Part shown: positions 4,180 through 29,328 of the stretch, piece after piece
Numbering within the stretch: position 1 is the first letter of the stretch
How the letters are laid out: the number at the start of each line of letters is the position of its first letter
NCBI GenBank assembly: GCA_003021975.1
Contig: PXRR01000035.1
Location: forward strand, 1 to 32,435
Reading direction: 5' to 3'
Length of the DNA stretch: 32,435 nt
Origin: Halobacteriales archaeon QS_5_70_17
Lineage (GTDB): Archaea > Halobacteriota > Halobacteria > Halobacteriales > Haloarculaceae
Notes under the pieces: generated by a model
What the model saw: only the letters and a program-made list of their open reading frames with translations
Database searches by the model: none
Told to the model about the DNA's origin: nothing
Program-made: the position numbers and the translations under genes

Positions 4180-4505
4180 GGGTATCGTCACATCACGCTG
4201 AAATACCGGCTGACGCGGGTGCACGAGGAATTCGGTGTTCGGTCGACGCTCCAGGACACCCGCAGGCGGAACTTCCGGCGGTGTCTCGAATCCACCTCCG
4301 GCGTCAGGCTCGTCCGACGAGAGAACGGCCGGTTCGTCTACGTCACCGCCGAGACGACCGCCGACGACGAACTACTCGGAGCGATTCCGCGGAAACACGT
4401 CCTCATCGGGACGATCACTACGGAGGACCGGGGCGTCGAGACCGGGTTCTGCGTGGCGTGGCGACGACCGGCCACCGGGAACGAAGTCCGGTCGTCCGAC
4501 CTCGC
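4180..4505 (+). pseudogene. Unrecognised coding fragment without a start codon
   Basis: After the TAG at 4174 an open frame with typical haloarchaeal composition runs through HITLKYRLTRVHEEFGVRST, then LQDTRRRNFRRCLES and ENGRFVYVTAET. It has no ATG; the only candidate starts are a GTG at 4219 and other non-ATG codons. Past about 4505 the same frame runs antisense through the amphi-Trp remnant and loses coding character. The Arg-rich helix followed by a beta-hairpin (VRLVRRENGRFVYV) resembles a winged-helix DNA-binding unit, but I cannot name a family. It is best read as the remains of a gene that lost both ends, next to another chain of broken genes. From 3973 to about 4180 I see no gene, only an A/T-rich patch at 4125-4165. 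Confidence 0.3.
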
Positions 4506-4997
4506 CTACGACTCGTCGTCGACGTCCGCGCCGGGAGCGTTCGCCACCACGCTCCTGATTCCCTTCTCGGCGTTCCGGCGCGTGGTGTACCCCTCGCCGC
4601 TTGTCGCGATGATGTTTCCGTTGCAGTGGACGAGCCGCCAGCGCCACTCGCCGGCCCGGTCGCGGAACACCTCGAACCGCGCCATCGACCCCGGACCGCC
4701 GCTGGCCGCGATCCCGGCGCCGGCCGACGACTCGTCTCTCCGGCCGGGATCGGTCTCCCCGGAGCGGTCCGAGGGTCGGTTCCGGTCGTCCGACTCCCCT
4801 TCCGGTGTCGCCGTCCAGTCGTCGGTCGCTCCCTCCCAGGAGAGCTCCAGTTCGAGTTCGAAGTCCTGCCCGTTCCCGCCGTCCTCGCCCTCCAGTTCGA
4901 TCTCGACGGCGAGATCCGAGGGCGTGGCGATCCGCCCGACCCCATCGTCGCCCCGGAGTTCGATCGACGTCCCCGCGTCGAGAGCGTCGGCCAGTTC
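4506..4997 (-). pseudogene. Amphi-Trp plus DUF1508 (HVO_2922-type) protein, N-terminus lost
   Basis: The 163 readable residues contain the second half of an amphi-Trp domain (ELADALDAGTSIEL, then alternating acidic strands and the closing LELSWEGA). A Ser/Arg/Asp-rich linker follows, then a DUF1508/YegP domain (ARFEVFRDRAGEWRWRLVH, then IIATSGEGYTTRRNAEKGI) and a TAG stop. An in-frame TGA at 4998-5000 directly precedes the first readable codon, and there is no start codon. The beginning of the amphi-Trp domain (usually about 25-30 residues) is missing, replaced by a transporter fragment in another frame. The function of the family is unknown; DUF1508 domains are often described as stress-related. 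This copy is probably not made unless translation begins internally. Confidence 0.7.
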
Positions 4998-5001
4998 TCA
5001 C

Positions 5002-5430
5002 AGCGGATGTCTCGTCGATCGCGCCGACCAGCACCAAGTTCGGCGGCGTGCCGACGGTGGTCGCGACGCCGCCGACCGACGCCGAGTAGGCGATACAGAG
5101 CATCAGCCCCGTTCCGAAGCGGAACTCGCCTTGCGCCGTCGGTACGTCCGCGTCAATGCGGTCGACGAGGTCGCTCGTCTGGGGGATCACCGCGAGGCCG
5201 ATGGGCGTCATCATCATCGTCGTCGCGGTGTTCGAGACCCACATCGAGAGGAACGCCGTCGCGACCATGAACCCGAGGATGATCCGGCTCGGACCGGTGC
5301 CGATCGCGCGGATCGTCCGCAGCGCGATGCGCCAGTGGAGGTCCCAGCACTGCGTCGCCATCGCGATGAAGAACCCGCCCATGAACAGAAAGATCAACGG
5401 GTCCGCGTACGAGGAGGTGGTGGTGTCGGG
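5002..5430 (-). pseudogene. Internal fragment of an SLC13 (DASS) family transporter
   Basis: About 143 residues match the middle of a sodium-coupled dicarboxylate or sulfate transporter. It starts at the re-entrant region (YADPLIFLFMGGFFIAMA) and continues through the ALRTIRAIGT loop and a helix with the family's first SNT motif (SMWVSNTATTMMMTPIGLAV). It ends in the segment GVATTVGTPPNLVLVGAI. The N-terminal helices (roughly 80-90 residues) and the whole second half, including the second SNT motif that completes the substrate site, are absent. It cannot transport as it stands. It is fused in frame behind the thioesterase at its start and joined out of frame to the amphi-Trp remnant at its end; the fused frame runs on without homology to 4372. 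Confidence 0.75.
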
Positions 5431-5856
5431 GTCGAGGGCCGCCGCTCGTAACTCCTCGCAGCGCTCGGTTTCGACGGGGAGGCGGGGAACCGGAGTCGGA
5501 GTGCCGTCCTCGTCGACGGCGACGAAGCCGAAGTAGGAGTCGGTCGTCTGCTCCTGATCCCCGGTCCGGGGAGCCTCGTGGAACGCCTGCAGCCGGACCA
5601 GGATGCTGGTTCGTTTGGTCGCGTACGCGTAAGCGGTGACGACACAGGTGTCCCCCTGGGGAATCGGGCGCTTGAAATCGAGGTCGCTAACGTGGGCCGT
5701 CACGCACGTCTCGCCGGCGTGGCGCATCGCGGCCAGCGCGCCGATCTCGTCCATCCACCGCATGATGTTCCCCCCGTGAGCGCTGCCGTAGTTGTTGGTG
5801 TCGTTGGGCTGGATCCGCTCTCCGTTCTCGAGGTGAGTGGCGCTGATACTGGACAC
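5431..5856 (-). CDS. Acyl-CoA thioesterase (hotdog fold), C-terminus fused into a transporter fragment
   Basis: About 142 residues form a complete-looking hotdog domain of the acyl-CoA thioesterase family, which hydrolyses acyl-CoA to free fatty acid and CoA in the cytosol. Typical motifs are QPNDTNNYGSAHGGNIMRWM, with the conserved Asn and His/Gly-Gly, then MRHAGETCVTAHVSDLDFKR, GDTCVVTAYAY and ESYF-like DSYFGFVAVDEDG. The GTG at 5856 (VSSISATHLENGE) is chosen as start because it matches where the family begins; the in-frame sequence upstream to 6045 looks non-coding. The usual stop after about 150 residues is missing. Translation would continue into transporter helices and random sequence to 4372, giving a 494-residue chimera. 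The enzyme domain could still fold, but a membrane-buried tail would be expected to disturb it. Confidence 0.8.
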
Positions 5857-6069
5857 GTCCCTCACTGGACGCCTCTCGGCAGAAACCGGGGTGCCTGCGG
5901 AGACCGCACCGACCCGACGCCACGCCCCGATGGTCGCCCGTGAGTCCTGCTCGGAGGCGACGGATCGAGCCCGGTGGTGAATTACCGGAACGGGGAGCGA
6001 CCGTCGACCGGGTTCCCGGCAGGGCGGTCGCGGTGAGTATACCACGCTCCCGGACCTACGGAACAGTAG

Positions 6070-6615
6070 ATGACGGGGCTCTCGCGCAACAAGTGGTTGT
6101 GGCTCTTCGGGACAGGCCTGCTGCTCTCCGGCGCGGTGGGGATCATCATCGCCGGCTACGTCGGCCTGCTCGCGGATTCGGCGGTCGCGAGCGGCGCACC
6201 GGTCTTCCCCGTCTTGCTCGATATCGCCCTCCCCGTGCTCGGGAGCCTCGCCGTGGTGGTCGCGCTACTGGCGCTGTCCGGCGTCGGCCTGCTCTGGGTA
6301 ATCGTTCGGAGCGCGTCGCTCCCGCGAAGCGACCGGATCGGGGCCCTCGCGAAGCGAGCCGAGCGGGAGTATCCGCCCCTCCGAGCCCTCGGGCTGGCGG
6401 ACCTCTTCACGCCGCCGGAGCCGTCGGCCGACGAGCAGGCCGAGCAGGCACTCGCTGAACTGAAACGACAGTACGTCGACGGAGAGATCACCGAAGCGGA
6501 GTTCGAACGGAAGGTCGGTCGCCTCGTCGCGAACGACTCGATTGACGAAGTCCATGCCGCCCGAGAGCGAAACCGCCTCCGCGATGACGGTCTCGGACGC
6601 GACCGCGGCCGATGA
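6070..6615 (+). CDS. Two-helix membrane protein with C-terminal SHOCT domain
   Basis: A 181-residue protein. Residues 8-33 and about 47-79 are strongly hydrophobic and form two (possibly three) membrane segments. A charged linker with a Pro/Glu-rich stretch follows. Residues 124-152 (QALAELKRQYVDGEITEAEF) form a SHOCT motif, the short C-terminal module found on many prokaryotic membrane proteins and thought to mediate oligomerisation. The last 25 residues are charged and probably disordered. The arrangement is common in haloarchaea, but no specific function is known. The ATG at 6070 directly precedes the first helix. The gene diverges from the thioesterase chimera. Confidence 0.8.
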   Translation: MTGLSRNKWLWLFGTGLLLSGAVGIIIAGYVGLLADSAVASGAPVFPVLLDIALPVLGSLAVVVALLALSGVGLLWVIVRSASLPRSDRIGALAKRAEREYPPLRALGLADLFTPPEPSADEQAEQALAELKRQYVDGEITEAEFERKVGRLVANDSIDEVHAARERNRLRDDGLGRDRGR

Positions 6616-7143
6616 GAGTACCTCCGCGCGGAGGCCACCGAGCGACAGAGCGCGTCTCCCTCCGCTCTTCGAGGGTTCAGCGGACCGAGAACGAGACGCG
6701 TACTGCCTTCCGGGTCGGTCGGTGCAGCACGGTCCTCTCCGGACTTTGGTGCCGGTGAGTGATCGTGAGCATCGTCCGGGCGGTCTCTGTGCCGGCCTCA
6801 GGACCCACCAGACGTTCACCGCCGTGTAAGCGACGACTATCGAACGCGAGCGGATTGTGACACGCGAAAGTAGCCCTCACTCGCTGTTCCGAATGCAGAG
6901 TGGTCTACGTCGAAGAAAACGGGTGATGGGCCTCCAGATCGTAGAGGAGTGGTATCGATGCGGGAGACCGCCTTCGGGCGGATCTGATCGGTCATAAGTC
7001 GATCCTCTCTGGGCGAGGCGCTCGTCGCTCTCTGACCTGGACCGCTGAGCGGACTCGGAGATCGACGCTTCTGGAGCTTACTGCCGGAGTGAAGCGATAC
7101 AGGGCCGTGACGTCGCCCGGGGCCTTGGACCCGGGAGAGTGTT
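6616..7143 (+). other. Intergenic stretch, no gene recognised
   Basis: About 530 bases without a convincing gene on either strand: open frames here have mixed third positions and no recognisable motif. The only structure I note is a short hairpin near 6968-6981 (CCGCC TTCG GGCGG), which is not followed by a T run. Confidence 0.5.
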
Positions 7144-7167
7144 ATGCCGTCGCGGCGTAGCTACCCC

Positions 7168-7772
7168 ATGGTGGATCTGACGGCGCTGACGCTCCATCTC
7201 CTGCGACTCTACGGTCCCCTCGTGTTGTGTCTGTTCACCTTTCTCGAGACGTCGATGCTGTTCCCGTTTCTCCCGAGCGAAGTCGTCGTTCTGGCGGCGG
7301 CCGCGTTGCTCGTCACGGACCCCGTCTCGCTGGTCGTGTTCGTACTGGCGGCCGGTATGGGGGGACGGCCGGTGCGTTCGTTCCGTTCTACGCGGCTCGC
7401 GACACCCGGTTCGGGAACGTCGATCGGATCACCGACCGAATTCTCGTCTCGGAGGATCGGATCGACCGGGGGAGGGAGTGGTTCCGCCGATGGGGGCGGT
7501 CGTCAGTGCTCTGGGGACGGTTTCTCCCCGCGTTCCGCTCTGTCGTCTCGATCCCCGCCGGCCTCGCGAAGATGAACCCGCGGCGGTTCGGGACCTTCAC
7601 GGCGGTCGGAACGGTCGGATTTTACGCCGCCACTGGCGGCCTCGTCTACTACGGCCGCCAGCGGTCGCTCTTCGAGTCGGCAGTCGCCGTTGCCGCCGGC
7701 AGCCCGGGGATCACCGCGGTCGCGGTGCTCGTACTCGTCGGCGGTGCGGTCCTCGTGCGAAGCCGGAACTAG
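7168..7772 (+). pseudogene. DedA-family membrane protein, one-base frameshift
   Basis: Two overlapping frames together encode a DedA/SNARE-associated (VTT domain) protein. The first, from the ATG at 7168 (MVDLTALTLHLLRLYGPLVL), carries the family's FLETSMLFPFLPSEVV segment. The second carries GTAGAFVPFYAARDT, then the conserved GRFLPAFRSVVSIPAGLAKM block and two C-terminal membrane helices. They meet at a run of six G (7359-7364). One extra G restores AAGMGGTAGAFVPF and a single 201-residue product of normal length. DedA proteins are inner-membrane transporters or scramblases involved in lipid-carrier recycling and proton homeostasis. ATG 7144 is an alternative start. The loss in a G run suggests a sequencing error; if real, the gene is dead. 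Confidence 0.8.
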
Positions 7773-8238
7773 CCACAGCTCGATCCGCACTCCCGAGGCG
7801 TCGTCGCCAGCGAACGACGCGCGACAGGACGCTATCCCCGGCCGGAAAGGGAGTGAGAGCGACCATTACCCTCGCCGTCGCGGAGGACCGACGCGGTACA
7901 CGCTTCGAGCGACTGGGAAGGCGCGTGAACTACCGCCGGGAGCACTGAACGGTCGGCCTGTGTCGAACGCTGCGAAGGCGTTTCAGAACCGTCGAGAAGG
8001 CGCTCTGGTGCCTCTCCCGGAGGCCCACAGTGCCAGCGAGAGCAGGAGGTAGTGAGCCGCCCGGTCTCGCTCTGTCTTCTCGAGTAGCGTGGAAGGAATT
8101 TACACTGCCCGCGTCCGCCTCGACTGCGATGGAAAACGCTGAGAGAGCCCAAAAGGACTGCTCTTCCGCTCCGTCGAAGGTCCGTTCGAGACCTGGTTTC
8201 GACGGCTACGTGTGCAGCGAGCCTCCGCCGTCGAAGAG
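7773..8238 (+). other. Intergenic stretch, no gene recognised
   Basis: About 465 bases. A 37-codon frame at 8129-8242 with an A/T-rich patch (GAATTTACA) 25-30 bases before its ATG is the only candidate, but its codon use and composition are not like the surrounding genes. Nothing else is supported. Confidence 0.45.
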
Positions 8239-10127: not shown

Positions 10128-10556
10128 TCAGTAGTAGCCTCCTCCGTTGGCGTCTCCGCTCCCCCCGAGCGGACTTTCGATAGCGGCGTCGCCGACACCG
10201 ACTTTCATGCTCATCCCCGAGAGGTCCGCCGAGCCGTGGATTGTACAGTACACGTCGTACACGCCACTTTCTTCGAACGTGTGTTCCACCGTCTCGCCGC
10301 CCGGTACGCGCTCATCGACGCGCCAGTTATCCGAGGTACTCGTGACAGTGTGTTCACCACTGTCCTCGTTCGTCCACATGACCGTGGTGCCGGCGTCGAC
10401 GTGGACGTTGCGGGGCTGGAATTGAGACTCCGTCATCGTCACCTCCGAGGTTTCTTCGACGCTGGCACTCCCCCTACCGGTACTCCCCGTGCACCCGGGG
10501 ACAGCCGTCACTGTGGTCGCTGCGAAGACTGTCAGGAACCGCCGTCGGTGCGTCAT
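10128..10556 (-). CDS. Halocyanin-like blue copper protein, Tat lipoprotein
   Basis: A 142-residue secreted electron carrier. The start ATG at 10556 is followed by a twin-arginine signal (RRRFLTVFAATT) and a lipobox (TAVPGC) with acyl-acceptor Cys22, so export folded by Tat and lipid anchoring outside the membrane are predicted. After a Ser/Glu-rich linker comes a plastocyanin-like domain. Type-1 copper ligands are His69 (in GEHTVTS), Cys104 and His107 (VYCTIHGSADLSGM), and Met115. The protein ends in a Gly-rich tail. Halocyanins shuttle electrons to or from terminal oxidases. Readable sequence upstream of 10556 in the same frame is not coding-like. It is a single gene, with no oxidase or other respiratory gene beside it; a PQQ dehydrogenase lies 5.6 kb away. 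Confidence 0.92.
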   Translation of the reverse strand: MTHRRRFLTVFAATTVTAVPGCTGSTGRGSASVEETSEVTMTESQFQPRNVHVDAGTTVMWTNEDSGEHTVTSTSDNWRVDERVPGGETVEHTFEESGVYDVYCTIHGSADLSGMSMKVGVGDAAIESPLGGSGDANGGGYY

Positions 10557-11329
10557 GGTATTAGCTAGCAGTCTACGCGGAAAGAATTCTTGTAGCTTGT
10601 GCCACCAATCAACGAGCTGTACTCTCGTTCGTTTGACGGTGTTGCAGACGAAGGGACCCGACGACCACCGGCTCGAGGGCGAGAGTGAGGGTGACGCTAT
10701 CGACGCGTCGGTCATCGAACCGTTGACGATCTGCTCGAACAGAGAGAGATCGCAAATCACGTTCGAAAACCGCCCGGATCAGCCGGCCACGATGCGTCAG
10801 ACCGGTCTCCCGCACGGCTCCAAGGACTCCGCCGGAATGAGCGTCGGCGGGAACCGAGCACGATCGCACGGCCGGACGAGACTGTCTCCTCCCGGTGGCA
10901 CGCCGCCCACCGGGAGGGGCACGTCTTCTTCGACGGCGCCCACCGAGGTTAGGACAGTCCCGACGCCGTAGAGCGATCGGGACGACTCCGCCGTCTTCTC
11001 CGTGGGGTCCGATAGACGACGGATGCGCGACGAGACGACCGACGAGTCCTGTCTCCGCTGGGTCCCTCGCAACACACGGCTGCCGCCTCGACGAACACGC
11101 ATACGCCCGGCGGGTACTCTCGGGGGTCGCGCGATGGGGCCTGACGGGCCGGAAGAGCGGGCGTTCCGGTGAGCGAACGTTTGTCCCGATCAGGCCGGAG
11201 AAGACGCCGGTGGGCGCGAGGACGAACAAGGGGGGCGGCCGGTGGCCTCGCTGTCCCGTCTTCCGGGAATCACCCGTCCCGCGTCAGTGGGATGTTCCGC
11301 TAGTCCGTCCAGTCTCCTCCGGCTACTGT
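10557..11329 (+). other. Long intergenic stretch, no gene recognised
   Basis: About 770 bases. Frames on both strands are Arg/Pro-rich or have mixed third positions, with no recognisable domain. The halocyanin promoter should lie at its left end: an A/T-rich AAAGAATTCT lies about 25-35 bases before the start at 10556. The only other structure is the hairpin at 10888-10917. The stretch may be decayed sequence. Confidence 0.45.
10888..10917. repeat. Perfect 11-base inverted repeat (hairpin)
   Basis: CCTCCCGGTGG at 10888-10898 and CCACCGGGAGG at 10907-10917 are exact reverse complements separated by 8 bases. It lies in gene-free DNA and has no adjacent T run, so it is not a typical terminator. 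Role unknown. Confidence 0.6.
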
Positions 11330-11363
11330 CCGAGAGAAACACAACCCCTATTGTCCCTCTCGG
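11330..11363 (+). promoter_or_regulatory. Promoter with flanking inverted repeat, sugar-oxidation operon
   Basis: CCGAGAG (11330-11336) and CTCTCGG (11357-11363) are perfect inverted arms. Between them is CTATT at 11348-11352, 25-29 bases before the ATG at 11377, where the TATA box of a leaderless archaeal transcript should be. Arms that straddle the TATA position are a plausible operator for a repressor controlling the oxidoreductase genes. The repeat is seen; the role is inferred. Confidence 0.4.
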
Positions 11364-11376
11364 GATTGTCCTCTGC

Positions 11377-12471
11377 ATGAGTGATTCTGGGAGGAGTGAC
11401 ACGCCGGAGCCAGGGTCCGTCAGGTCCGACCGCCTTCGAATCGGCGTCGTCGGTGGCGGTTACATCGGGACGACCGTCGGCGAAACGTTCGTCGAACACG
11501 CCGACGCGCAGGTCGCCGCGCTCACCGACATCGACGAGGAGACCCTCGAAACCGCCGGGGTCGAGTTGGGCGTCGACCCCGACAGCCGGTACACCGAGTA
11601 CGAGTCGATGCTCGATTCGGAAGCGCTCGACGCAGTGCTCGTCGGAACGCCACACACGCTTCACTACGACCAGATCCTCGCGGCGTTCGAACGCGACCTG
11701 CACGTGCTCTGTGACAAGCCGCTGACGACGGATCTAGACGAGGCGCGCGAACTCGTGAGCCTCGACCGCGAACGCGACGAAGTACTGATGATCGGCTACC
11801 AGCGGCACCTCTACCAGGCGTTCGTCAGAGCGCGCGAGGTGTGGGCAGAGGACGACCGCGAACCGCGCTGGATCACGGCCGAAGTCTGCCAGGACTGGGT
11901 CGACCGCTTCGAGGACACGTGGCGACAGGACCCCGACCTCTCCGGCGGTGGATACCTCTACGACACGGGAAGCCACCTCCTCGACTGCGTCCTCTGGAGT
12001 ACCGGCCTCACCCCCGAAGCCGTCTCGGCGGACATGACGTTTCTCGACGATCGGGAGCGCGTCGACGGCCGTGCGAACGTCACTGTCCGGTTCACGAACG
12101 GCGCGACGGCCTCGTTCTCGCTGTCGGGCGAGACACCGTGCATGCGCGAACACGTGCGGATGTGGGACGAACGAGGCGCGGTCGTACTCGACAGCCAGGA
12201 CTGGGAGCCGAGTGAGTACGCCGAGATCGACGACGAGAGCGGTGAGCACCGACCGCACCTCCCCCAGCGCGGTCGGCAGTCGAAGGCCGAGGCGTTCGTC
12301 GAGGCGATCCGAACGGGGGAACGGCCCACCGCGACGGCGCTCGACGGACTCCGGGTGACCGCTGTGACCGAGGCGGCCTACCAGTCAGCCCGCGGCGACG
12401 GGTCGTTCGTCACCGTCGACCCAGCGGACGTGGCACTGGAGAGCGAGGCTCCGATCCGCCAGCGCGAGTGA
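11377..12471 (+). CDS. Gfo/Idh/MocA family NAD(P)-dependent oxidoreductase (first copy)
   Basis: A 364-residue cytosolic dehydrogenase. After a short polar tail it has a Rossmann motif (RIGVVGGGYIGTTVGE, residues 21-36) and the family's (E/D)KP motif as CDKPL at 112-116. The catalytic-domain pair Asp196/His200 sits in YDTGSHLLD. Length and order are normal. Members oxidise or reduce sugars, polyols or sugar nucleotides using NAD(P); the substrate cannot be read here. The ATG at 11377 is chosen by the TATA-like spacing and because sequence upstream is not coding-like. It lies 194 bases before the isomerase gene and almost certainly belongs to the same catabolic unit, although that gene also seems to have its own promoter. 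It is only distantly similar to the second Gfo/Idh/MocA protein, so the pair probably acts on successive intermediates rather than being a recent duplication. Confidence 0.9.
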   Translation: MSDSGRSDTPEPGSVRSDRLRIGVVGGGYIGTTVGETFVEHADAQVAALTDIDEETLETAGVELGVDPDSRYTEYESMLDSEALDAVLVGTPHTLHYDQILAAFERDLHVLCDKPLTTDLDEARELVSLDRERDEVLMIGYQRHLYQAFVRAREVWAEDDREPRWITAEVCQDWVDRFEDTWRQDPDLSGGGYLYDTGSHLLDCVLWSTGLTPEAVSADMTFLDDRERVDGRANVTVRFTNGATASFSLSGETPCMREHVRMWDERGAVVLDSQDWEPSEYAEIDDESGEHRPHLPQRGRQSKAEAFVEAIRTGERPTATALDGLRVTAVTEAAYQSARGDGSFVTVDPADVALESEAPIRQRE

Positions 12472-12633
12472 CACCGCGATACGACCACCGCCCGGTATGT
12501 GGTCCGTGAATCCGACCGGCAAGGGGTCAAAAAACCTCGGTCGGTGAATCGGTCGCGAGCCATCAGTCGGCGAGGGCGACAGAGACAGACGTCACTCCGA
12601 TCTAGGAGAGCGATCCGGCGAAGAGACGGGCGG

Positions 12634-12659
12634 GTTTTATGTCGGAGCTATCGCTCCGA
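12634..12659 (+). promoter_or_regulatory. TATA-like box and hairpin before the isomerase gene
   Basis: GTTTTAT at 12634-12640 lies 26-32 bases before the ATG at 12666. It is followed by a perfect 7-base inverted repeat with a 4-base loop (TCGGAGC at 12642-12648, GCTCCGA at 12653-12659). The upstream ATG at 12639 falls inside the TATA-like box, which is the main reason for starting the isomerase at 12666. Confidence 0.45.
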
Positions 12660-12665
12660 GGAAAC

Positions 12666-13634
12666 ATGGACGTCGGAGTTCTAACCGTCCCGCTGGGGGA
12701 CCGACCCGTCGACGACGTGTTCGAGTATCTCTCGGGGCTCGGCGTGAGCGCGGTCGAGATCGGCTGCGGCGGGTATCCGGGGGAGGATCCCCTCCCTCGA
12801 CGGCGGTACCTCGACGACGAGGACGCACAGTCCGAGCTGCAGCAGTTGCTCAAGGAGCACGACCTCGAGATATCAGCGCTCGCCACCCACAACAATCCGC
12901 TTCACCCGGACGAGGAGCGAGCGGACGAGGCCGACAGGGAGCTGCGCGAGGCGATTCGACTCTCTTCTCAGCTCGGTGTCGACGTCGTGACCGCGTTCTC
13001 GGGCCTCCCGGGCGGCGCCCCGGACGACGAGGTGCCGAACTGGATCACGGCCCCCTGGCCGACGGAGCACGCGGAGGCGCTGGAGTACCAGTGGGAGGTC
13101 GCGACGGCGTACTGGTCAGAGCTCGCCGACCACGCGTCCGATCACGGCGTCGAGATCGGGATCGAGATGCACCCGAACATGCTCGTCTACGAACCGACCG
13201 GGATGGCCCGGCTGCGCGAGGCGACCAACGAGTTCGTCGGCGCCAACTTCGATCCGTCGCATCTCTACTGGCAGGGGATCGATCCGACCGAGGCCATCCG
13301 CTATCTCGGAGAACGGGACGCTATCCACCACGTCCACGCGAAGGACACTCGGGTCTACGATCACAACGCTCGCCGGAAAGGCGTACTCGACACGACGCCC
13401 TACACCGACGAGGCGGACCGGTCCTGGCTGTTCCGGTCCGTCGGCTACGGCCACGGGGAGGACCACTGGAAGGACATCGTATCGACCCTACGGATGGTCG
13501 GGTACGATGGTGCGCTCTCGATCGAACACGAGGACGGGCTCACCTCCGCCCGCGAGGGACTGGAGAAGGCGGTCGACGTGCTGCAGCGGGCCGTCTTCGA
13601 GACGACTCCCGGTGACGCATACTGGGCCGAATAA
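12666..13634 (+). CDS. Sugar phosphate isomerase/epimerase (xylose isomerase-like TIM barrel)
   Basis: A 322-residue TIM-barrel protein of the AP-endonuclease-2/xylose-isomerase superfamily. It starts on a barrel strand (MDVGVLTVPLGDRPVDDVFE). The divalent-metal ligands expected for the family are visible: Glu167 in IGIEMHP, Asp196 and His199 in NFDPSHLYW, a His cluster in HHVHAKDT (221-228), and Glu287 in LSIEHED. Such enzymes isomerise or epimerise keto-sugars or inositol derivatives, often on the product of a Gfo/Idh/MocA dehydrogenase. The next gene starts within its stop codon (13634, one-base overlap), so the two are translationally coupled. The exact substrate is unknown; inositol-type and 3-keto-sugar pathways are both compatible. 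Confidence 0.88.
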   Translation: MDVGVLTVPLGDRPVDDVFEYLSGLGVSAVEIGCGGYPGEDPLPRRRYLDDEDAQSELQQLLKEHDLEISALATHNNPLHPDEERADEADRELREAIRLSSQLGVDVVTAFSGLPGGAPDDEVPNWITAPWPTEHAEALEYQWEVATAYWSELADHASDHGVEIGIEMHPNMLVYEPTGMARLREATNEFVGANFDPSHLYWQGIDPTEAIRYLGERDAIHHVHAKDTRVYDHNARRKGVLDTTPYTDEADRSWLFRSVGYGHGEDHWKDIVSTLRMVGYDGALSIEHEDGLTSAREGLEKAVDVLQRAVFETTPGDAYWAE

Positions 13635-14764
13635 TGGCGTCGAGCCCCACAGAGCCGTTCGACGTCGGTGTGCTCGGCTATCGGTTCATAGGAGCTGCGC
13701 ACGCGAACGCGCTCGCTCGGCTCCCGATGTTCTTCGAGGACGCGCCGGCGGTGAACCGGCACACGCTCGTGGGTCGCGATGAGGAGGCGCTCGCCGACGC
13801 CGCCGATCGACTCGGCTTCGACAACATCGCGACCGACTGGGCGGACGCAGTCGACGAGGTGGACGCGTTCTACAACCTCGGTCCGAACCACGTCCACGAG
13901 GAGCCCTCGGTCGCCGCCCTGGAGTCCGACACTCCCGTCCTCTGCGAGAAACCGCTCGCGCCGACGCTGGAGGCCGCCGAGCGGATGCGCGACGCGGCCG
14001 CGACGAGCGACGCGCTCGCCGCCTGCGCGTTCAACTACCGGTTCGTCCCCGCCATCCAGTACGCGAACCGCCTGATCGACGCGGGCGAGCTCGGCGAGAT
14101 CCGTCACGTCCGCGGGCGATACCTCCAGGACTGGCTCGTCGATCCCGAGGCGCCCTGGGAGTGGCGCCTCTCTGCGGACCTCGCCGGCGCCGGTGCGCTC
14201 GGCGACCTCGGCGCCCACACGATCGATCTCGCGCGTTTCCTCGTCGGCGACCGAGTCGGGGAGATCGACCGCCTCTCGGGGCACCTGCGGACGTTCGTCG
14301 ACGAGCGCCCCGTGGAGGGAACTGACGACACCCGCGAGGTGACCGTCGACGACGCGTACACGGCGCAGGTAGAGTACGACTCGGGCGCCGTCGGGAACTT
14401 CGAGGCCTCGCGGTACGCGACCGGCCACAAGAACGACCATACGATCGAGATTCACGGCTCCGATGGGAGCCTGAAGTTCTCGCTGGAACGGCTGAACGAA
14501 CTGGAGGTACTGACTGGCGACTCGAGGGGATACGAGACGGTGCTCGTCACCGACGCCGATGACCCCTACGGCGAGCACTGGTGGCCGCCGGGCCACGTGC
14601 TCGGCTGGGAGCACACGTTCGTCCACGAGAACTACGAATTCCTGTGTAGCGTCCGCGACGGCGACCCCTTCCGTCCCTCCTTCGGCGACGCCTACGAGGT
14701 CCAGCGCGTGCTCGACGCGATTCAGCGCAGCGACGAGCGAGGGGAGTGGGTCAGACTGGACTGA
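13634..14764 (+). CDS. Gfo/Idh/MocA family oxidoreductase (second copy)
   Basis: A 376-residue NAD(P)-dependent dehydrogenase. The Rossmann motif (VGVLGYRFIGAAHANAL, 11-27) is followed by the CEKPLAP motif (Glu105-Lys106-Pro107) and the catalytic pair Asp190/His194 in LGDLGAHTID. The C-terminal half has a loop GEHWWPPGHVLGWEHTF, as in sugar-dehydrogenase members that use a large substrate. The ATG overlaps the TAA of the isomerase gene by one base. The third residue of the glycine motif is unusual: GYRFIG replaces the more common GxGxxG/A form, a variation seen in part of the family. It probably acts together with the isomerase and the first oxidoreductase on one carbohydrate. Confidence 0.9.
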   Translation: MASSPTEPFDVGVLGYRFIGAAHANALARLPMFFEDAPAVNRHTLVGRDEEALADAADRLGFDNIATDWADAVDEVDAFYNLGPNHVHEEPSVAALESDTPVLCEKPLAPTLEAAERMRDAAATSDALAACAFNYRFVPAIQYANRLIDAGELGEIRHVRGRYLQDWLVDPEAPWEWRLSADLAGAGALGDLGAHTIDLARFLVGDRVGEIDRLSGHLRTFVDERPVEGTDDTREVTVDDAYTAQVEYDSGAVGNFEASRYATGHKNDHTIEIHGSDGSLKFSLERLNELEVLTGDSRGYETVLVTDADDPYGEHWWPPGHVLGWEHTFVHENYEFLCSVRDGDPFRPSFGDAYEVQRVLDAIQRSDERGEWVRLD

Positions 14765-16135: not shown

Positions 16136-17797
16136 TCAGGACTCGACGGAGAATACCAGTAGGTGCCCCGGCCGGGACGGATACTTGTACCGCGCGACGT
16201 CGCCGCCACCGCCTGCGGCGACCGCGAGGTACTGTTTCTCCGTGGCGGGATCGTACCAACTCGTCGGCGCAGAACACACCGGCGCGTCCGGTTCCCGCTC
16301 CCGTCGCAGGAGTTCACCGTTCGTGGCGTCGATAAACCGAATCTCGCTGGTCGGTAAGCCGACGACGAGGACGTCGCCGCCGGTGACGAGAGATCCGGAC
16401 ATCATCATCGCCGGAGTTTCGTGGGTCCAGTCCCGGGCGCCGGTGTCGGGATCGTAGGCGACGATTTCGCCACCCTCGTTGGTGGGCAGCACGTCGTTTT
16501 TCAATCCGCCGCCGACGAATCCGTCGAGGTAGCCGTAACTCCCCTTGGCCCGCTCATCGTAGTCCGGATGGGCGGCCACGAGGTCGTTTTTGGTGAAGTT
16601 GCCGATCGCGTAGAACCGATCGGTCTTCGGGCTCCAACTGGGTGGCGACCACTCGCTGCCGCCCCACAGGGAGGGGCCCTGGTCCTCAACGGCCTCGTCG
16701 TTGGTGAACCCGGGTCGCTCAAACTCGTTGTCGGTATGGTAGCCGTACGGTTCGCTCCGTTCGGTCACCTTCCCGCTTTCCGCGTCGAACATGTACACCC
16801 AGCCGTGCTTGCCCTGCTGGAAGACCCGCTTCTGGCCGTCACTGGGGGTCGCCACGAGCGCTGGGCTCGCGATGTCGCGGTCCCACCAGTCGTGGGGTAG
16901 GATCTGGTAGAACCACTTCAACTCCCCAGTCCGGGCGTCCGTCGCGACCGTCGAACACGTCATCGGGTTCGGCCCGGGCCGGACGTTCGCGTTGAAATCG
17001 GGGCCGGGGTTCCCCGTCGACCAGTAGACGGTATCGGTGTCGGGATCGATAACCGGCGTCATCCAGGCCGTTCCGGCGCCGTATCGCCAGCTCTCCTCGG
17101 GCCACTTGTCCTTGGGGATGAAGCTTCTCTGGTATTCTAGCTCGCCGGTTTCGGCGTCGACTGCCGTATACTTGCCCTGGATGCCGCGTTCTCCGCCCGA
17201 ATGGCCGAGAATGAGCATCCCGTCGTAGACTATCGGCTTCTGGGTCTGAAAGTATCCGTCCGTGGGATCATGGAGGCGAGTCGACCAGACCTCTTCGCCA
17301 GTGTACCGGTCGAGTGCGTAGATCGTCGTGTCTGTCGCGTTCAAATAGACTTTGTCCCCGTAGACCGCGACACCGCGGCTGTACGGCCGCGCCATGCTGA
17401 CGTCGGTGTGGTGTCTGAATCGCGGCTGGAACTCCCAGAAGACCTCTCCGTTCCGTGCGTTAACCGCGGCCATCCTGTCGTACCCGCCGATCGTATACAA
17501 GACCGGCGGATCGCCAGGGACCACCGTCGGCGAGTCCTCGTACCCACCGCCAGTGTCGATGTGGTAGATGTACTCCAATTCCAGGTCTTCGACGCTTCCC
17601 GTATCGAGGACGCTACAGGGTGTGTACCCGTGTCCCCGGTATCCCCCCCGGTAGTGGAGCCACGACTCCTCGTTTTGCCCGTCCTCCAGCAGCATTTCGT
17701 CGGTGACCGATACTTCCGGAATCTCGTCCGTCGCGTAGGTCTCGTAGATCGGCCCGTAACTCACCTGCCCCGAATCCGTCACGTCTGGTGATACCAT
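16136..17797 (-). CDS. PQQ-dependent alcohol dehydrogenase-like eight-bladed propeller
   Basis: A 553-residue quinoprotein of the methanol/ethanol dehydrogenase family. Family elements (numbered from the ATG at 17797) are the opening VTDEMLLEDG and WLHYRGGYRGHGYTP; the metal-ligand Glu in GHSGGERGIQG (about 203); the Trp under PQQ in GTAWMTP (245); the metal-ligand Asn in STGNPGPDFN (263); and the catalytic Asp306 in PHDWWDRD. Asp308 two residues later is the extra acidic ligand typical of lanthanide-dependent enzymes. The adjacent-cysteine pair of bacterial methanol dehydrogenases is absent. There is no Sec or Tat signal, which is odd for an enzyme normally outside the membrane; the GTG at 17812 does not add one. 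It oxidises an alcohol or sugar, passing electrons to a carrier. No PQQ-synthesis gene is present here. Confidence 0.88.
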   Translation of the reverse strand: MVSPDVTDSGQVSYGPIYETYATDEIPEVSVTDEMLLEDGQNEESWLHYRGGYRGHGYTPCSVLDTGSVEDLELEYIYHIDTGGGYEDSPTVVPGDPPVLYTIGGYDRMAAVNARNGEVFWEFQPRFRHHTDVSMARPYSRGVAVYGDKVYLNATDTTIYALDRYTGEEVWSTRLHDPTDGYFQTQKPIVYDGMLILGHSGGERGIQGKYTAVDAETGELEYQRSFIPKDKWPEESWRYGAGTAWMTPVIDPDTDTVYWSTGNPGPDFNANVRPGPNPMTCSTVATDARTGELKWFYQILPHDWWDRDIASPALVATPSDGQKRVFQQGKHGWVYMFDAESGKVTERSEPYGYHTDNEFERPGFTNDEAVEDQGPSLWGGSEWSPPSWSPKTDRFYAIGNFTKNDLVAAHPDYDERAKGSYGYLDGFVGGGLKNDVLPTNEGGEIVAYDPDTGARDWTHETPAMMMSGSLVTGGDVLVVGLPTSEIRFIDATNGELLRREREPDAPVCSAPTSWYDPATEKQYLAVAAGGGGDVARYKYPSRPGHLLVFSVES

Positions 17798-18120
17798 GTG
17801 TGTCGGTAACACGCATGGGCCAACGTAACTAATGTCTTACGGGGCATTTCTACACTGTCTTCTCATATGGATATAACAATGTGAATTTACCACTTGCTTT
17901 GGAAGTTATATCTCCGGTTGCTGGCGACTAAATAAGACACGTAGTCGGCGTACTGACGCCCCGAACGACGGACTTCGAGGCCCGAAGAGTGGAGTAGGGG
18001 CCATTCGGTACCGGGCCCCGATTCGTAGGACGCTCCGGAGACGAGTGGGTGCCGCGTGTGCCGGACGCTGCATCCGGCGGTTATCACAACCTTTATTTCG
18101 TAACATTGCTATCACGCCCC
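17798..18120. other. A/T-rich divergent intergenic region with inverted TATA-like arms
   Basis: This region separates the PQQ dehydrogenase from the divergent gene at 18121. It is clearly more A/T-rich than its surroundings. GATATAAC (17870-17877) and GTTATATC (17905-17912) are perfect inverted arms 27 bases apart, each TATA-like. CTTTATTT at 18091-18098 lies 23-30 bases before the ATG at 18121 and is its likely TATA box. No gene is visible. Confidence 0.45.
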
Positions 18121-18903
18121 ATGGTAGGATCTGTCAATGACCCGTTGTCAGAGGACGCGAAGGGGCGCCTCACCGACGCCGGCGACGAACTGGCGGACGA
18201 GATACGTACCGAGGTCGACGGGGCAGCGCTCTCCGACGCCGCCGGCGACATGGCGCAAGCACTGGCGAACGTCTCTTCGCTGACCCACGAGGACCTCTCC
18301 CCGACCCTGGAGACGGAATACGAGACTGTAGCGGCCCGAGCCAATGACCTCGTCTCCAACCTCATTCTGGCGGACTTCTTCGAAACTGCGGACGAGGTTC
18401 TCCCGCCGTTCGACCCCGACTTCTTGGAGGACTGTCTCGCACACGCTGTCGGAACCGCCGAAATGGAGCCATTCGAGACAGCCGGCGTGGGATCCGAGCT
18501 TCCGGAGTTCGTCGATGAGGCGCTCTCTCACACTGAAGCCATCGAACAGAACGTGCGCTGGGAGCCAGAGAAGCCCAACAAGGTCTCACCGATGACGACC
18601 CGCGGTGCGACTGAGGGCGTCGTCGACTGGCTCGACGACCTCGGCAGGCACCTCTGGATGTCCGAGGTACTCCTGTCGGAGCAGATGCTTGAGGACGCGG
18701 AGACGCACACGCGAGCGATGGGCAGCGCACTGCTCCTGCTCGCCCAGGGCGTGGCCGGACTTGATCACGACGAGAGTAATCCCGAGGACGACGTCGCCCG
18801 GATCGTCGGCGGGATCGCCCTCCACACGCACCACCAGCGCAGGCTCCCGGAGGACCTCTCTTGGATCACCGATGAGATGCGAGCCCCCGGCGGCTGGGCC
18901 TGA
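18121..18903 (+). CDS. Acidic, helical protein of unknown function
   Basis: A 260-residue soluble, acidic protein that I do not recognise. There is no signal peptide or membrane helix, and it is predicted mostly helical: AGDELADEIRTEVDGAALSD near the start, then VSNLILADFFETADEV and a long Leu/Ala helix MGSALLLLAQGVAGLD. His residues cluster in LHTHHQRRLPEDL near the end. No cysteine pair or nucleotide-binding motif suggests an enzyme class. The ATG at 18121 fits the TATA-like spacing, so it is probably a real expressed gene. It lies divergent to the PQQ dehydrogenase and is followed by a remnant of another propeller protein; a helper or regulator of that system is possible but unsupported. 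Confidence 0.75.
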   Translation: MVGSVNDPLSEDAKGRLTDAGDELADEIRTEVDGAALSDAAGDMAQALANVSSLTHEDLSPTLETEYETVAARANDLVSNLILADFFETADEVLPPFDPDFLEDCLAHAVGTAEMEPFETAGVGSELPEFVDEALSHTEAIEQNVRWEPEKPNKVSPMTTRGATEGVVDWLDDLGRHLWMSEVLLSEQMLEDAETHTRAMGSALLLLAQGVAGLDHDESNPEDDVARIVGGIALHTHHQRRLPEDLSWITDEMRAPGGWA

Positions 18904-24945: not shown

Positions 24946-26580
24946 TCACTCCTCGGCTTTCCCGTCTCTCCGGTCGCGCTTCCTCGCCTCGGGGTCGCGG
25001 TCGGCGGGGTCACCGTGGCCGCCGCCGCCGGGAGTCCGCACGGTGACGGTCGCCCCCGACTCGACGTCGACGGTCGCCTTCGCGGACACCGTTTTGCCGT
25101 CGACGAGGTTCTGGCCGGTCGCGCCGTCCTCGCCGCCGGCGACGCCCCGCGGCCGGGTGCGGCGGCGCTCGGTCAGCAGCGACACCGTCGCCGGACGCAG
25201 AACTGTCAGCGCCCGCTCGAGGCCGAGGCCGCCGCGGTACTCGCCGTCGCCGCCCGTCCCCGGGCGGAGCGCGTAGCGGTCGACCCGGAGGGGGTACTCG
25301 GCCTCGAGCACCTCGACGGGCGTGTTCAGCGTATTGGTCATCCCGACCTGGACGCCGTCCATGCCGTCGGCGGTGCCGGTCGCACCGCTGCCCCCGCCGA
25401 TCGTCTCGTAGTAGGCGAACTCGCCCGTCCGGGAGCCGACGACGAGGTTGTTCATCGTCCCCTGGCCGCCGGCGGGGACGCGGTCGGGGACGGCCTCCGC
25501 GAGCGCCGCGAAGGTGACGTCCGTGACCCGCTGGCTGGTCTCGACGTTCCCGCCGACGACCGCCGCCGGTGGATCGGGGTCGAGCAGCGACCCCTCTGGA
25601 GCGATGACCGTCACCGGATCGTAACACCCCTGGTTGGGCGGGATCTCCGGATCGGTCACCGACCGGACGACGAAGTAGACGGCGCTCTTCGCGACCGCGG
25701 GCGGCGCGTTCAGGTTCCCGGCGACCTGGTCGGCCGTCCCCGCGAAGTCGACCGTCAGCGTCGGTCCGTCGACGGCGACCGACACTTCGATCGGGATGTC
25801 TTTGTCGGTCACGCCGTCCCCTTCCAGGACGCCCCCGGCCTCGTATGTGCCGTCGGGGATGGCTGCGAGTTCGCTCTCCATGCGCTCTCGCGAGTAGTCG
25901 ATGACGGCGTCGAAGGCATCGAGGACCGCCTCCCCGTGCTCGGCCAGCAGGTCGGTGAGGCGCGCCTCGGCGCGGTCGTGGGCCGCCAGTTGCGCCCGGA
26001 GGTCCGCGCGGCGCTCGTCGGGCGTGCGGACGTTCGCGAGGAAGAAGTCGAGCACGTCGTCGGCGATCTCGCCGTCACGCACGAGCCGGACGCCGGGGAT
26101 GCGGGTCCCCTCCTCGTGGATCTCGCGGGCGCCGGCTGGCATGCTCCCCGGCGTCGATCCGCCGACGTCGGCGTGGTGGGCCCGCGAGACGGCGTAGCCG
26201 ACGGTGCCGTCGGCCCCCGCCGGCGAGAGCGGCGAGACAAGGGTGACGTCCGGGAGGTGCGTGCCGCCCGCGAAGGGGTCGTTGAGCGCCCACACCTCGC
26301 CGGGGACGGGATCGCGCGCCCGGACCGCGGCGACGGCTTCGGGCATCGCACCCAGGTGGACTGGGATGTGCTCGGCCTGCGCGACCATCCGTCCGTCGGC
26401 ATCGAACAGCGCCGTCGAGCAGTCCCGGCGCTCCTTGATATTCGGGGAGTACGCCCCCCGAACGAGGACCTGCCCCATCTCCTCGGCGACGCCCTCCAGT
26501 TGGTTGCGCAGGACCTCGAGGGCGACCGGGTCGAGGTCGGGGTCGGAGCGGCGCTCGTTCCCGTTCTCGGTCCCGCTCAC
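24946..26580 (-). CDS. hyuB: Hydantoinase B/oxoprolinase family protein
   Basis: A 544-residue subunit of the ATP-dependent hydantoinase/5-oxoprolinase type. Typical segments are VRGAYSPNIKERRDCSTALF (40-59), HIPVHLGAMPEAV (71-83) and WALNDPFAGGTHLPDVTLV (97-115). An internal YYETIGGGSGA block and the terminal PGGGGHGDP complete it. With HyuA it would open a cyclic amide (hydantoin, 5-oxoproline or a related ring) at the cost of ATP; acetone-carboxylase-type relatives are also in this superfamily. The GTG start at 26580 overlaps the TGA of hyuA by four bases (GTGA), so the genes are translationally coupled. The protein itself looks complete, but its partner is frameshifted. Confidence 0.92.
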   Translation of the reverse strand: MSGTENGNERRSDPDLDPVALEVLRNQLEGVAEEMGQVLVRGAYSPNIKERRDCSTALFDADGRMVAQAEHIPVHLGAMPEAVAAVRARDPVPGEVWALNDPFAGGTHLPDVTLVSPLSPAGADGTVGYAVSRAHHADVGGSTPGSMPAGAREIHEEGTRIPGVRLVRDGEIADDVLDFFLANVRTPDERRADLRAQLAAHDRAEARLTDLLAEHGEAVLDAFDAVIDYSRERMESELAAIPDGTYEAGGVLEGDGVTDKDIPIEVSVAVDGPTLTVDFAGTADQVAGNLNAPPAVAKSAVYFVVRSVTDPEIPPNQGCYDPVTVIAPEGSLLDPDPPAAVVGGNVETSQRVTDVTFAALAEAVPDRVPAGGQGTMNNLVVGSRTGEFAYYETIGGGSGATGTADGMDGVQVGMTNTLNTPVEVLEAEYPLRVDRYALRPGTGGDGEYRGGLGLERALTVLRPATVSLLTERRRTRPRGVAGGEDGATGQNLVDGKTVSAKATVDVESGATVTVRTPGGGGHGDPADRDPEARKRDRRDGKAEE

Positions 26581-28579
26581 TCCGAATCACCCCCGGACGA
26601 GAGGACGAGCGTGCCGTCCTCCCCGACCGCGGCGGTCCACGACGGCGGGACGACGACCGTGCTCTCGGCCTGCTCGACGACGGCGGGACCGTCGAAGGTT
26701 CGGCCGGCGGACAGTCCCGACCACGCGTAGACGAGCGTCTCGTGGACCGCGTCAGCGTCGCTCTCCGCGCCGGTCCCGAAGCGGGCCTCCCGGCGGTCGG
26801 TCAGCGCGTCGCCCGCTGCCTCGTGGTCCGGCGCGGGCGCCGACCGACCGGCGGTCGCCGTCACCCGGAGGTTCACGACGTCGACCAGTTCGTCCATCCG
26901 GTAGCCGTAGGTCGCTTCGTGGGCCGCGTGGAAGCGCTCGGCGACGACTTCGGGATCGAACGGCTCGCCCGCGTCGACCGTGAGTTCGAAGCTCTGGCCG
27001 GTGTACCGGAGGTCGGCTCGCCGGTCGACCGCCGCGGTCTCAGGGTCGCGGGCGTCGGCCAGCGCCTCGCGTTCGAGGGCCGCGTAGCGCTCGTCGACGG
27101 CGTCGGGGTCGGCCTCGGCGACCGGGACCCGGTGAGTTCGGACGGCGTCGTGTCTCTCGTCGGCGGCCAGCAGGCCGTACGCCGAGAGGACGCCGCAGGC
27201 CGGCGGGATGACCACGGTCCCGATGCCGAGGTCCGCGGCGAGCGCGGCCGCGTGCATCGGGCCGGCGCCGCCGAACGCGACCAGGCCGAACCCGCGGGGG
27301 TCGTGGCCCCGCTCGACGGTCGCGGAGCGGATCGCCCGCGCCATGATGGCGTTCGCGACGCGGTAGACGCCGCGGGCGGCCGCGACACGGTCCGGGAGAC
27401 CGGCCGCGTCGGCCAGGTCGGCCAGCGCGTCGCCCGCCGCCTCGGCGTCGAGGGAGAGTTCGCCCCCTAGCTCGGTGCTCTCGCCGATGTACCCCAGAAC
27501 GAGGTTCGCGTCAGTGACCGTCGGCTCGGTCCCGCCGCGGCCGTAGCAGGCGGGACCGGGGTCGGCCCCCGCGCGATCGACCCGCCCCCCGCCCCGACGG
27601 TCGTCACGTCGACCATCGGCGTCCGGACGGGCCGACCGCCGATCTCCGCGTCGGTCGTGCGCTCGGCCTCGCCGTCCCGGACGAGGCTCACGTCGCTGGA
27701 CGTCCCGCCCATGTCGAAGGTGACCAGCCCCCGGAGGTCGCGAGTCTCGGCGACCGATCGCGCGGCGGCGTTCGCGCCGACGACGCCCGCCGCGGGACCG
27801 GACATCGTCGTCGTGACCGCGTGCTCCCGGACCGCGCTCGCGGCGGCGACGCCGCCGTTGGCCTGCATGACGAGCGGTTCGGGCAGGCCCGCCGCGGTCG
27901 CCTCCTCGATGAGGCCGCCGAGGTAGCGGTCGATGGCGGGAGTCACGTAGGCGTCGACGACGGTCGTCGAGGTCCGCTCGTACTCGCGGAACTCCGCCAG
28001 TACCTCGTGGGACGCCGAGACGGGGATCGACAACTCGTCCTCGAGGACGTCGACGACTCGGCGCTCGTGGCCGGGGTCGGCGTAAGCGTGGAGCAGGCAG
28101 ACCGCGACGCTCTCGGCGTCGCAGTCCCGGACTCGGTCGGCGACCTCCCGGACGGTCGACTCGTCGAGGGGCCGTTCGACGTCGCCGCCGGGGGCGACCC
28201 GTTCGGGGAGTTCGAAGCGCCGCCGACGGGGCACCAGTGGGGCGGGTTTGCGCGCCGAGAGGTCGTACAGCTCCGGGCGGTCCTGCCGGCCGATCTCGAG
28301 GACGTCCCGGAACCCCTCGGTGGTCACGAGCGCCGTCCGGGCGCCCGCCTCCTCGAGCAGGGCGTTGACCGAGACGGTCATCGCGTGGGTGAACTCTCCG
28401 ACGTCGGCGGGATCGATCCCGGCGGCGTCGCAGGCCTTCTCGATCCCCCGGAGGACCCCGACGCTCTGGTCGTCGGTGGTCGGCACCTTCGCGGTCGCGA
28501 GGCCGCCGTCGGCGGTGGCCAGCACCACGTCGGTGAACGTCCCGCCGACGTCGGCGCCGAGTCTGGTCTCGTCGGTCAT
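26577..28579 (-). pseudogene. hyuA: Hydantoinase A/oxoprolinase family protein, interrupted by an out-of-frame deletion
   Basis: The first 337 residues from the ATG at 28579 form the N-terminal and first ATPase-like parts: LGADVGGTFTDVVL (7-20), HAMTVSVNALLE, the TMSGPAAGVVGAN block (258-270), VTFDMGGTSSDVSL and VGAGGGSIAR. Near 27566-27571 the meaning jumps to another frame that continues GADPGPACYGRGGTEPTVTD and runs to the TGA at 26577, including the FGGAGPMHAAALA block. In the family GGGSIA is followed by about 12-15 residues (VD.GG.L.VGP.SA) before GADPGPACYG. Those are missing here, so a deletion that is not a multiple of three is likely. As read, the product ends soon after the junction and the hydantoinase would be inactive. 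An assembly error is possible. Confidence 0.85.
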
Positions 28580-29328
28580 ACCGGGGTCACGCCCGCGATG
28601 GACAGGAGCGTTCGGACGCCGAGCCAGGCCACGACCGAGAGGACGGTGTCGATCCGGGACTCCGGCAGGTCGGCCGCTCCAGCCCAGCGGTCGGTGACGC
28701 TCGAGGCGTGGAGAAAGAGGTTGTACCCGACGACGGTCATCCCGATCAGCCCGGTCACCAGGTACAGCGCCCCGTCGGGGATGCCCGGGACGAACCCCAG
28801 CGCGAGCGCTTCCCAGCCCGGGCCGACGATGATAGCGTCGGCGACGAACGCGACGGCCATCACGCCCACGAGACCGACCAGCGCCCGCTCGATGTACTCG
28901 TAGTTCCCGGTCCACAGCAGCGCGCCGGCGACCAGCCCCATCACCGGCCCCCAAACGTTGGCGCTGATCCCGGTGACGACCTCGAGGCCGGCGGCGCCGC
29001 CGAGGATGTTGCCGGCCTCGTAGGCGGCGGTCCCAACGCCGATCGCCGAGACGACGAGCGCGACGCTGATCCACCGGGGGATCGCGGCGGCGAATCGCTC
29101 GCGGAGCGCCTCGCCCAGCCCTGACCCGGTGACGAAACCGAGGCGCGCGCTCATCTCCCGGAGGACGATCGTCGCGACGGCCGAGAACACGATCGTCCAG
29201 ACCAGCGCGTAGCCGAAAGAAGCTCCAGTAACGCTGGCGGTCGTCACGGTCCCCGGACCGATGAACGCCGCGGCGACCATCGCGCCGGGACCGATCGATC
29301 GCAGCCGTTCGACGATCGAACCTCCCAT
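28576..29328 (-). CDS. Nramp-like (YcsG-type) transporter with large internal deletion
   Basis: A 250-residue membrane protein. From the ATG at 29328 it has Nramp helices 1 to 6: a first helix with FIGPGTVTTASVTGASFGY, then ATIVLREMSARLG and helix 6 with VVGYNLFLHASSV. After DTVLSVV (about residue 232) the sequence jumps to AWLGVRTLLSIAGV, the usual last helix of the family. Members have about 400 residues, so roughly 150 residues (helices 7 to 10) are missing in frame. The canonical metal-site DPGN of helix 1 is GPGT, and the helix-6 Met is absent, so metal transport is doubtful. Its stop overlaps the hyuA start. In Bacillus, the Nramp-like ycsG lies beside oxoprolinase genes, so uptake of the ring substrate is a possible role for the intact ancestor. 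Confidence 0.8.
   Translation of the reverse strand: MGGSIVERLRSIGPGAMVAAAFIGPGTVTTASVTGASFGYALVWTIVFSAVATIVLREMSARLGFVTGSGLGEALRERFAAAIPRWISVALVVSAIGVGTAAYEAGNILGGAAGLEVVTGISANVWGPVMGLVAGALLWTGNYEYIERALVGLVGVMAVAFVADAIIVGPGWEALALGFVPGIPDGALYLVTGLIGMTVVGYNLFLHASSVTDRWAGAADLPESRIDTVLSVVAWLGVRTLLSIAGVTPV

Follow-up and report, generated by a model that had tools for sequence, protein, structure and literature searches.

The described systems closest to the protein considered here are the lanthanide enzymes PedH and XoxF (PDB 6zcv and 6dam), which share with it the propeller fold (TM 0.81-0.83), the D-x-D motif, the metal-binding Glu and Asn and the stacking Trp. In contrast to these enzymes, to which it is 22-27% identical, it belongs to a separate monophyletic haloarchaeal clade whose members have no signal peptide, have Lys throughout in place of Arg331 and are accompanied by a dedicated helical partner, while PQQ genes are absent. 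A D-x-D motif is also present in the glucose dehydrogenase of the E. coli type, mGDH (PMC11996626). Among archaea, D-x-D quinoproteins, some of them without signal peptides, have been published from heterotrophic marine Thaumarchaea (PMC7300363), and the existence of such a protein in an archaeon is therefore no novelty. Compared by description, the thaumarchaeal set resembles the present family in being archaeal and in having D-x-D in part of its members; those members lack the Cys-Cys pair, as does the copy studied here, and blue copper proteins or quinones have been proposed as acceptors. The thaumarchaeal set differs in that signal peptides occur in 15 of its 21 families and TM segments in 19, and in that its genomes encode a PQQ synthase.

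Two further systems are relevant. The precedent for hitchhiker export is the γ subunit of the FAD glucose dehydrogenase BcGDH of Burkholderia cepacia (PMC6719666), a small all-helical partner with a Tat signal, on which the secretion of the catalytic subunit depends. Its cargo is a flavoprotein rather than a quinoprotein, and similarity in sequence or fold to the haloarchaeal partner is not detectable beyond a weak match of one partner to PF12318 (E=0.08). The Acido-empty-quinoprotein group A, described by the NCBI model TIGR04528, has a related propeller, and its Acidobacterial relatives keep D-x-D in genomes that lack PqqC. However, the haloarchaeal protein scores 223.7 bits against the 650-bit cut-off of this model and is placed elsewhere on the tree, and the partner gene is absent from the Acidobacterial loci. 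A search of the freely accessible literature found no publication on the haloarchaeal quinoprotein family or its partner.

The window, which is the whole stretch of DNA analysed (32,435 nucleotides), corresponds to the complete contig C35 of a source genome of 2.6 Mb that is 73% complete. The quinoprotein gene and its main residues, whose roles were assigned by alignment with solved quinoproteins, are located as follows.

16136..17797, minus strand: quinoprotein-type dehydrogenase homologue of 553 amino acids, signal peptide absent (ORF, profile and structure matches)
17390..17395, minus strand: M135-A136, replacing the vicinal Cys-Cys pair (alignment; Cys-Cys in 26 of 44 haloarchaeal rows)
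17189..17191, minus strand: E203, metal ligand Glu (alignment; Glu in 40 of 44 rows, Asp in 3, Tyr in 1)
17063..17065, minus strand: W245, PQQ-stacking Trp (alignment; 44 of 44)
17009..17011, minus strand: N263, metal ligand Asn (alignment; 44 of 44)
16874..16882, minus strand: D306-R307-D308, the D-x-D motif, catalytic Asp and extra Asp (alignment; both Asp in 44 of 44 haloarchaeal rows)

The frame is intact, with an ATG start and a stop codon at 16136-16138. The protein matches PF01011 of Pfam (E=1.7e-46), and its closest NCBIfam model is TIGR03075, with 316.7 bits against a cut-off of 480 bits that the profile search finds exceeded nowhere in the source genome. The AlphaFold model, built with a 47-row alignment, has a pLDDT of 85.1; its best Foldseek matches are all quinoprotein ADH/MDH structures, including PedH and XoxF, and the top PDB match is PedH 6zcv (E=7.5e-44, TM 0.81). 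The predicted fold is a quinoprotein propeller. The preliminary description of this DNA, which had recognised an archaeal quinoprotein with the metal Glu, the metal Asn, the stacking Trp and D-x-D in place, is borne out in both respects, the residues aligning as E203, N263, W245 and D306/D308. Its statement that a signal peptide is missing also stands: a missed upstream signal frame is excluded because the frame opens merely 13 codons before the ATG, and polar residues precede the domain. In relatives, the quinoprotein starts about 20 bp or less from the stop codon of the upstream gene at nearly all loci, which leaves no space for a missed N-terminal signal. None of the haloarchaeal quinoproteins examined has a signal peptide of its own, and most bacterial homologues on the tree start with one. 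As far as these sequences tell, the missing signal is a trait of the family, not a peculiarity of the window copy.

Six positions do not vary in the 44 haloarchaeal rows: both Asp residues of D-x-D, the metal Asn, the stacking Trp, Arg109 and Lys331. In the window, D306 is encoded at 16880-16882 and D308 at 16874-16876. The middle residue of the motif is Tyr in 39 of the 44 rows, and Arg occurs only in the window copy and in its ortholog at locus L088. On this alignment, D-x-D is a character of the whole haloarchaeal family. Since it is family-wide, and is found also in Acidobacterial homologues from PqqC-less genomes and in mGDH, it is no proof of lanthanide dependence; it fits lanthanide use without demonstrating it. 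The motif had been taken as the mark of a lanthanide-dependent enzyme, a claim that its distribution does not sustain, and lanthanide dependence should not be called from D-x-D alone.

The window copy has its own distinctive changes. In addition to Met-Ala at the vicinal Cys-Cys, it has M466 at the position of W476 (the Trp above PQQ), D533 at that of W540 and Glu at that of N394, in MxaF numbering. The source genome contains another quinoprotein-partner pair, in canonical tandem arrangement (G000:C40:68547-70142; L052 10542-13188), and this paralog keeps Cys-Cys, both Trp residues and DYD. In the tree, the haloarchaeal quinoproteins form a monophyletic clade with a support of 100, outside all bacterial references. 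The window protein lies within this clade and not inside the XoxF/PedH clades, and a placement among calcium-type enzymes, which a tree had been suggested to check, is excluded. Together with L088 it sits on a branch of length 1.16, joined to the other haloarchaeal rows with a support of 90, in a tree computed in quick mode where long-branch effects are possible; by this measure the window copy branches deeply and is divergent. The L088 ortholog comes from the MAG QS_8_65_32 (87%), which belongs to a family other than that of the window. Between the two quinoproteins, dN is 0.076 and dS is 1.1, the latter near saturation, giving a dN/dS of about 0.07, while for the partners dN is 0.25 against a dS of 1.2. 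Comparison of the window with the 18-kb L055 locus shows conserved DNA in the quinoprotein and its divergent partner only. By these substitution rates, the window quinoprotein is under strong purifying selection.

The partner gene lies on the other side of the quinoprotein start and had been overlooked in the preliminary description.

17798..18120, no strand: divergent intergenic region between quinoprotein and partner (same layout in L055/L088)
18121..18903, plus strand: partner gene, all-helical protein of 260 amino acids, in which the N-terminal Tat-like segment of many relatives is absent

The partner adjoins the quinoprotein in 65 of 66 haloarchaeal loci, the exception being one MAG locus, L098. 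In 63 of these 65 it is directly upstream on the same strand, and at 61 of the 63 tandem loci the quinoprotein starts between -10 and +20 bp relative to the partner stop codon; the two divergent layouts are those of the window and of L088/L055. Among 293 genomes of the order, all 52 that are positive for the quinoprotein have the partner, and 55 genomes are partner-positive; a phylum sample of 295 genomes contains five partner-positive ones, all in the same order. These genome counts are lower bounds, few candidates having been scored per genome. Distances between partners and between quinoproteins co-vary (r=0.85), with none of 1000 permutations as high. From this linkage and co-occurrence, we infer that the two proteins form a physical complex. 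The model of the window partner is all-helical with a pLDDT of 87.3, and it has no fold match in the PDB at E<=0.001. Neither a Pfam family nor a sequence match was found for the partner, and the sequence and structure searches link it to no known family or fold. The module occurs in culturable haloarchaea, among them Natrinema, Natrialba, Halorussus and Halomarina.

The quinoproteins have no signal, but many of their partners have a putative one. An N-terminal RRxFLK-type motif is found at residue 13-31 in 29 of 67 partners and is followed by 12-18 uncharged residues, which is short for a Tat signal; the RR is often preceded by acidic residues. Among 43 members, the Tat models TIGR01409 and PF10518 match 18 and 13 partners, respectively, at E<=0.1, with a best E of about 1e-4. 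The window partner and the L088 partner lack the Tat segment. When the Tat-type label is mapped on the quinoprotein tree, it is clustered and needs four changes, a pattern that would fit a Tat-type partner in the ancestor, lost several times since, once in the window lineage. The quinoproteins of L126, L130 and L132, whose partners are of the Tat type, have a membrane anchor at the C-terminus. Such an anchor is typical of exported haloarchaeal proteins.

A blue copper domain is adjacent or fused at 34 of about 69 haloarchaeal loci. Two to three fusions are to the quinoprotein itself, the fused domain being N-terminal at L129, L133 and L080, and nearly all the adjacent blue copper proteins inspected have ordinary Tat signals. 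Fourteen loci whose partner has no Tat motif keep the adjacent blue copper gene, which a simple cytosolic switch does not explain. In the Natrialbaceae loci L089-L096, L100, L101, L128, L136 and L155, the Tat-like segment of the partner is lost and the blue copper gene is directly downstream; its product is of the Tat type where read. The window also contains a blue copper gene, which is not adjacent to the quinoprotein.

10128..10556, minus strand: Tat/lipobox-type blue copper protein of 142 amino acids, candidate electron carrier (PF13473, PF00127; start MTHRRRFLTVFAATTVTAVPGC)

With Tat-like signals on many partners and blue copper proteins adjacent or fused, members of the family need not be cytosolic. 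The enzyme had been expected to be cytosolic; this part of the earlier account is not supported for the family, where 29 of 67 partners have a Tat-like N-terminus and half the loci have blue copper, but for the window copy itself, whose partner lacks the Tat segment, a cytosolic location is possible. By analogy, these features suggest that the enzyme was originally exported through Tat as a hitchhiker and passed its electrons to copper proteins.

The explanation preferred here is that the quinoprotein is the catalytic half of a haloarchaeal two-gene module with a dedicated helical partner that served as its Tat escort; taken as a whole, module and escort together, it has a probability of about 0.55. 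The catalytic half would be a quinoprotein resembling type I alcohol dehydrogenases; it has the full D-x-D metal site, lacks a signal peptide and would be bound by the helical partner. The twin-arginine signal of the ancestral partner would escort the folded, cofactor-loaded enzyme through Tat, and the exported enzyme would oxidise alcohols or aldehydes, with blue copper proteins as electron acceptors. The module of the window lineage would be a derived form, since its genes are divergent, its partner has lost the Tat segment and its pocket differs at several residues; this copy probably still binds a metal and its partner, and its present site of action may be the cytosol. What the sequences show is the fold, the residues, the gene linkage and co-occurrence, the distribution of the Tat motif, the adjacent or fused blue copper domains, the purifying selection and the absence of PqqC. 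The physical complex, the hitchhiker export, the acceptor, the substrate, the binding of PQQ and the choice of metal are the parts of the scheme that we infer. Against a Tat escort stand the absence of the Tat segment in more than half of the partners and the L098 quinoprotein, which has no partner gene. A more specific form of the scheme is tentative, with clearly less than an even chance: a haloarchaeal system with an obligate Tat escort or subunit of unmatched fold, blue copper acceptors and either scavenged PQQ or a non-PQQ cofactor, some lineages of which, that of the window included, are back in the cytosol. If the preferred explanation holds, the module would be a case of quinoprotein export without a signal on the enzyme itself, of which we know no other, and a likely function can be assigned to a protein family that has neither a name nor a fold match in the PDB.

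The supply of cofactor is a separate question. PqqC is over its cut-off in none of the 293 genomes of the order, nor in the L088 genome, and PqqE in none of 11 haloarchaeal genomes that contain the quinoprotein, where the PqqE matches are generic radical-SAM proteins far below the cut-off. The positive controls, a megaplasmid of Sinorhizobium and a genome of the Pirellulales, were clearly positive, which shows that the searches are able to detect these genes. No PQQ gene was recognised in the window contig, in agreement with the earlier remark that no PQQ synthesis gene is nearby, and the searches detected no canonical route of PQQ synthesis in the source genome or elsewhere in the order. Judged from these gene contents, the cofactor must be imported PQQ, another cofactor or none, and loading before export would need one of the first two. 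This raises the question of how a conserved pocket for PQQ and metal is maintained where PQQ is not synthesised. ABC importers with NMT1/THI5-type binding proteins are found near the module at L045, L052, L061, L066, L070, L080 and others; an ABC importer cluster is present in 17 loci and is, by adjacency only, a candidate importer of PQQ or another cofactor, or of substrate.

Other readings of the same data can be weighed against the escort. The cytosolic, lanthanide-dependent PQQ dehydrogenase of the preliminary description would account for the complete D-x-D site, for the lanthanide enzymes PedH and XoxF as the best structural matches and for the absence of a signal on both the quinoprotein and the window partner, and it would suit the aldehyde:ferredoxin oxidoreductase gene, a cytosolic enzyme type, directly downstream of the L088 ortholog. 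It is nevertheless quite improbable, since D-x-D is shared by the whole family and by mGDH and is not diagnostic, the equivalents of Cys-Cys, W476 and W540 are lost in the window copy, and PQQ synthesis is absent from the order; moreover, we know of no route by which PQQ or a lanthanide enters the haloarchaeal cytosol. The same losses and the missing PqqC and PqqE, together with the Acidobacterial relatives of the TIGR04528 group, which share the residue set and lack PqqC, suggest an 'empty quinoprotein' that has kept fold and metal site but has no PQQ, and acts in a non-redox role or with a different cofactor. This is a doubtful reading, albeit a better one than the lanthanide reading, because the metal and stacking residues are nearly invariant family-wide and the blue copper fusions suit a redox enzyme. 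Some organisms, E. coli being an example, also use PQQ although they have no genes for its synthesis (PMC12124388).

The remaining alternatives concern the partner and the integrity of the gene. The partner may be a maturation chaperone or regulatory subunit that stays in the cell, with RRxFLK as part of an amphipathic helix; the shortness of the uncharged stretch after RR, the lack of any homologue or fold match and the absence of the motif in more than half of the partners, that of the window included, all agree with such a role. It is nonetheless unlikely, falling between the two preceding readings, because the Tat models match 18 and 13 of 43 partners, the motif sits at the N-terminus and its carriers group on the tree with few changes, and the associated quinoproteins bear C-terminal anchors or blue copper domains. 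That the window copy is a decaying pseudogene, as the loss of several pocket residues and the long branch might indicate, is very improbable: the frame is intact, the gene pair is conserved as a unit, and the dN/dS of about 0.07 against L088 contradicts decay.

Several other genes recur in the neighbourhood of the module or lie elsewhere in the window. The aldehyde:ferredoxin oxidoreductase gene of L088 is at 5973-7907, and such genes are also near L046, L047 and L072. Downstream of copies of the C40 type (L045-L049, L052 and others), genes for a 2Fe-2S ferredoxin and for a small coiled-coil protein are found repeatedly, and Na/Ca exchanger genes recur as well. Ferredoxin was not adopted as the acceptor because PQQ couples are far more positive than ferredoxin. 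At L062 and L068 the module adjoins genes that, judged by eye, resemble those of ribosomal proteins S12 and S7. In the window, the hydantoinase A gene is broken into two frames (26577-27344 and 27470-28579) beside a shortened Nramp-type transporter, both within 26577-29280 on the minus strand. The frame at 4372-6045, also on the minus strand, combines a thioesterase domain with citrate-transporter fragments and decays into low-complexity sequence, which suggests that it contains frameshifts. A sugar or inositol catabolism cluster at 11242-14764 on the plus strand, with two GFO/IDH/MocA proteins and a xylose-isomerase-like protein, faces the quinoprotein.
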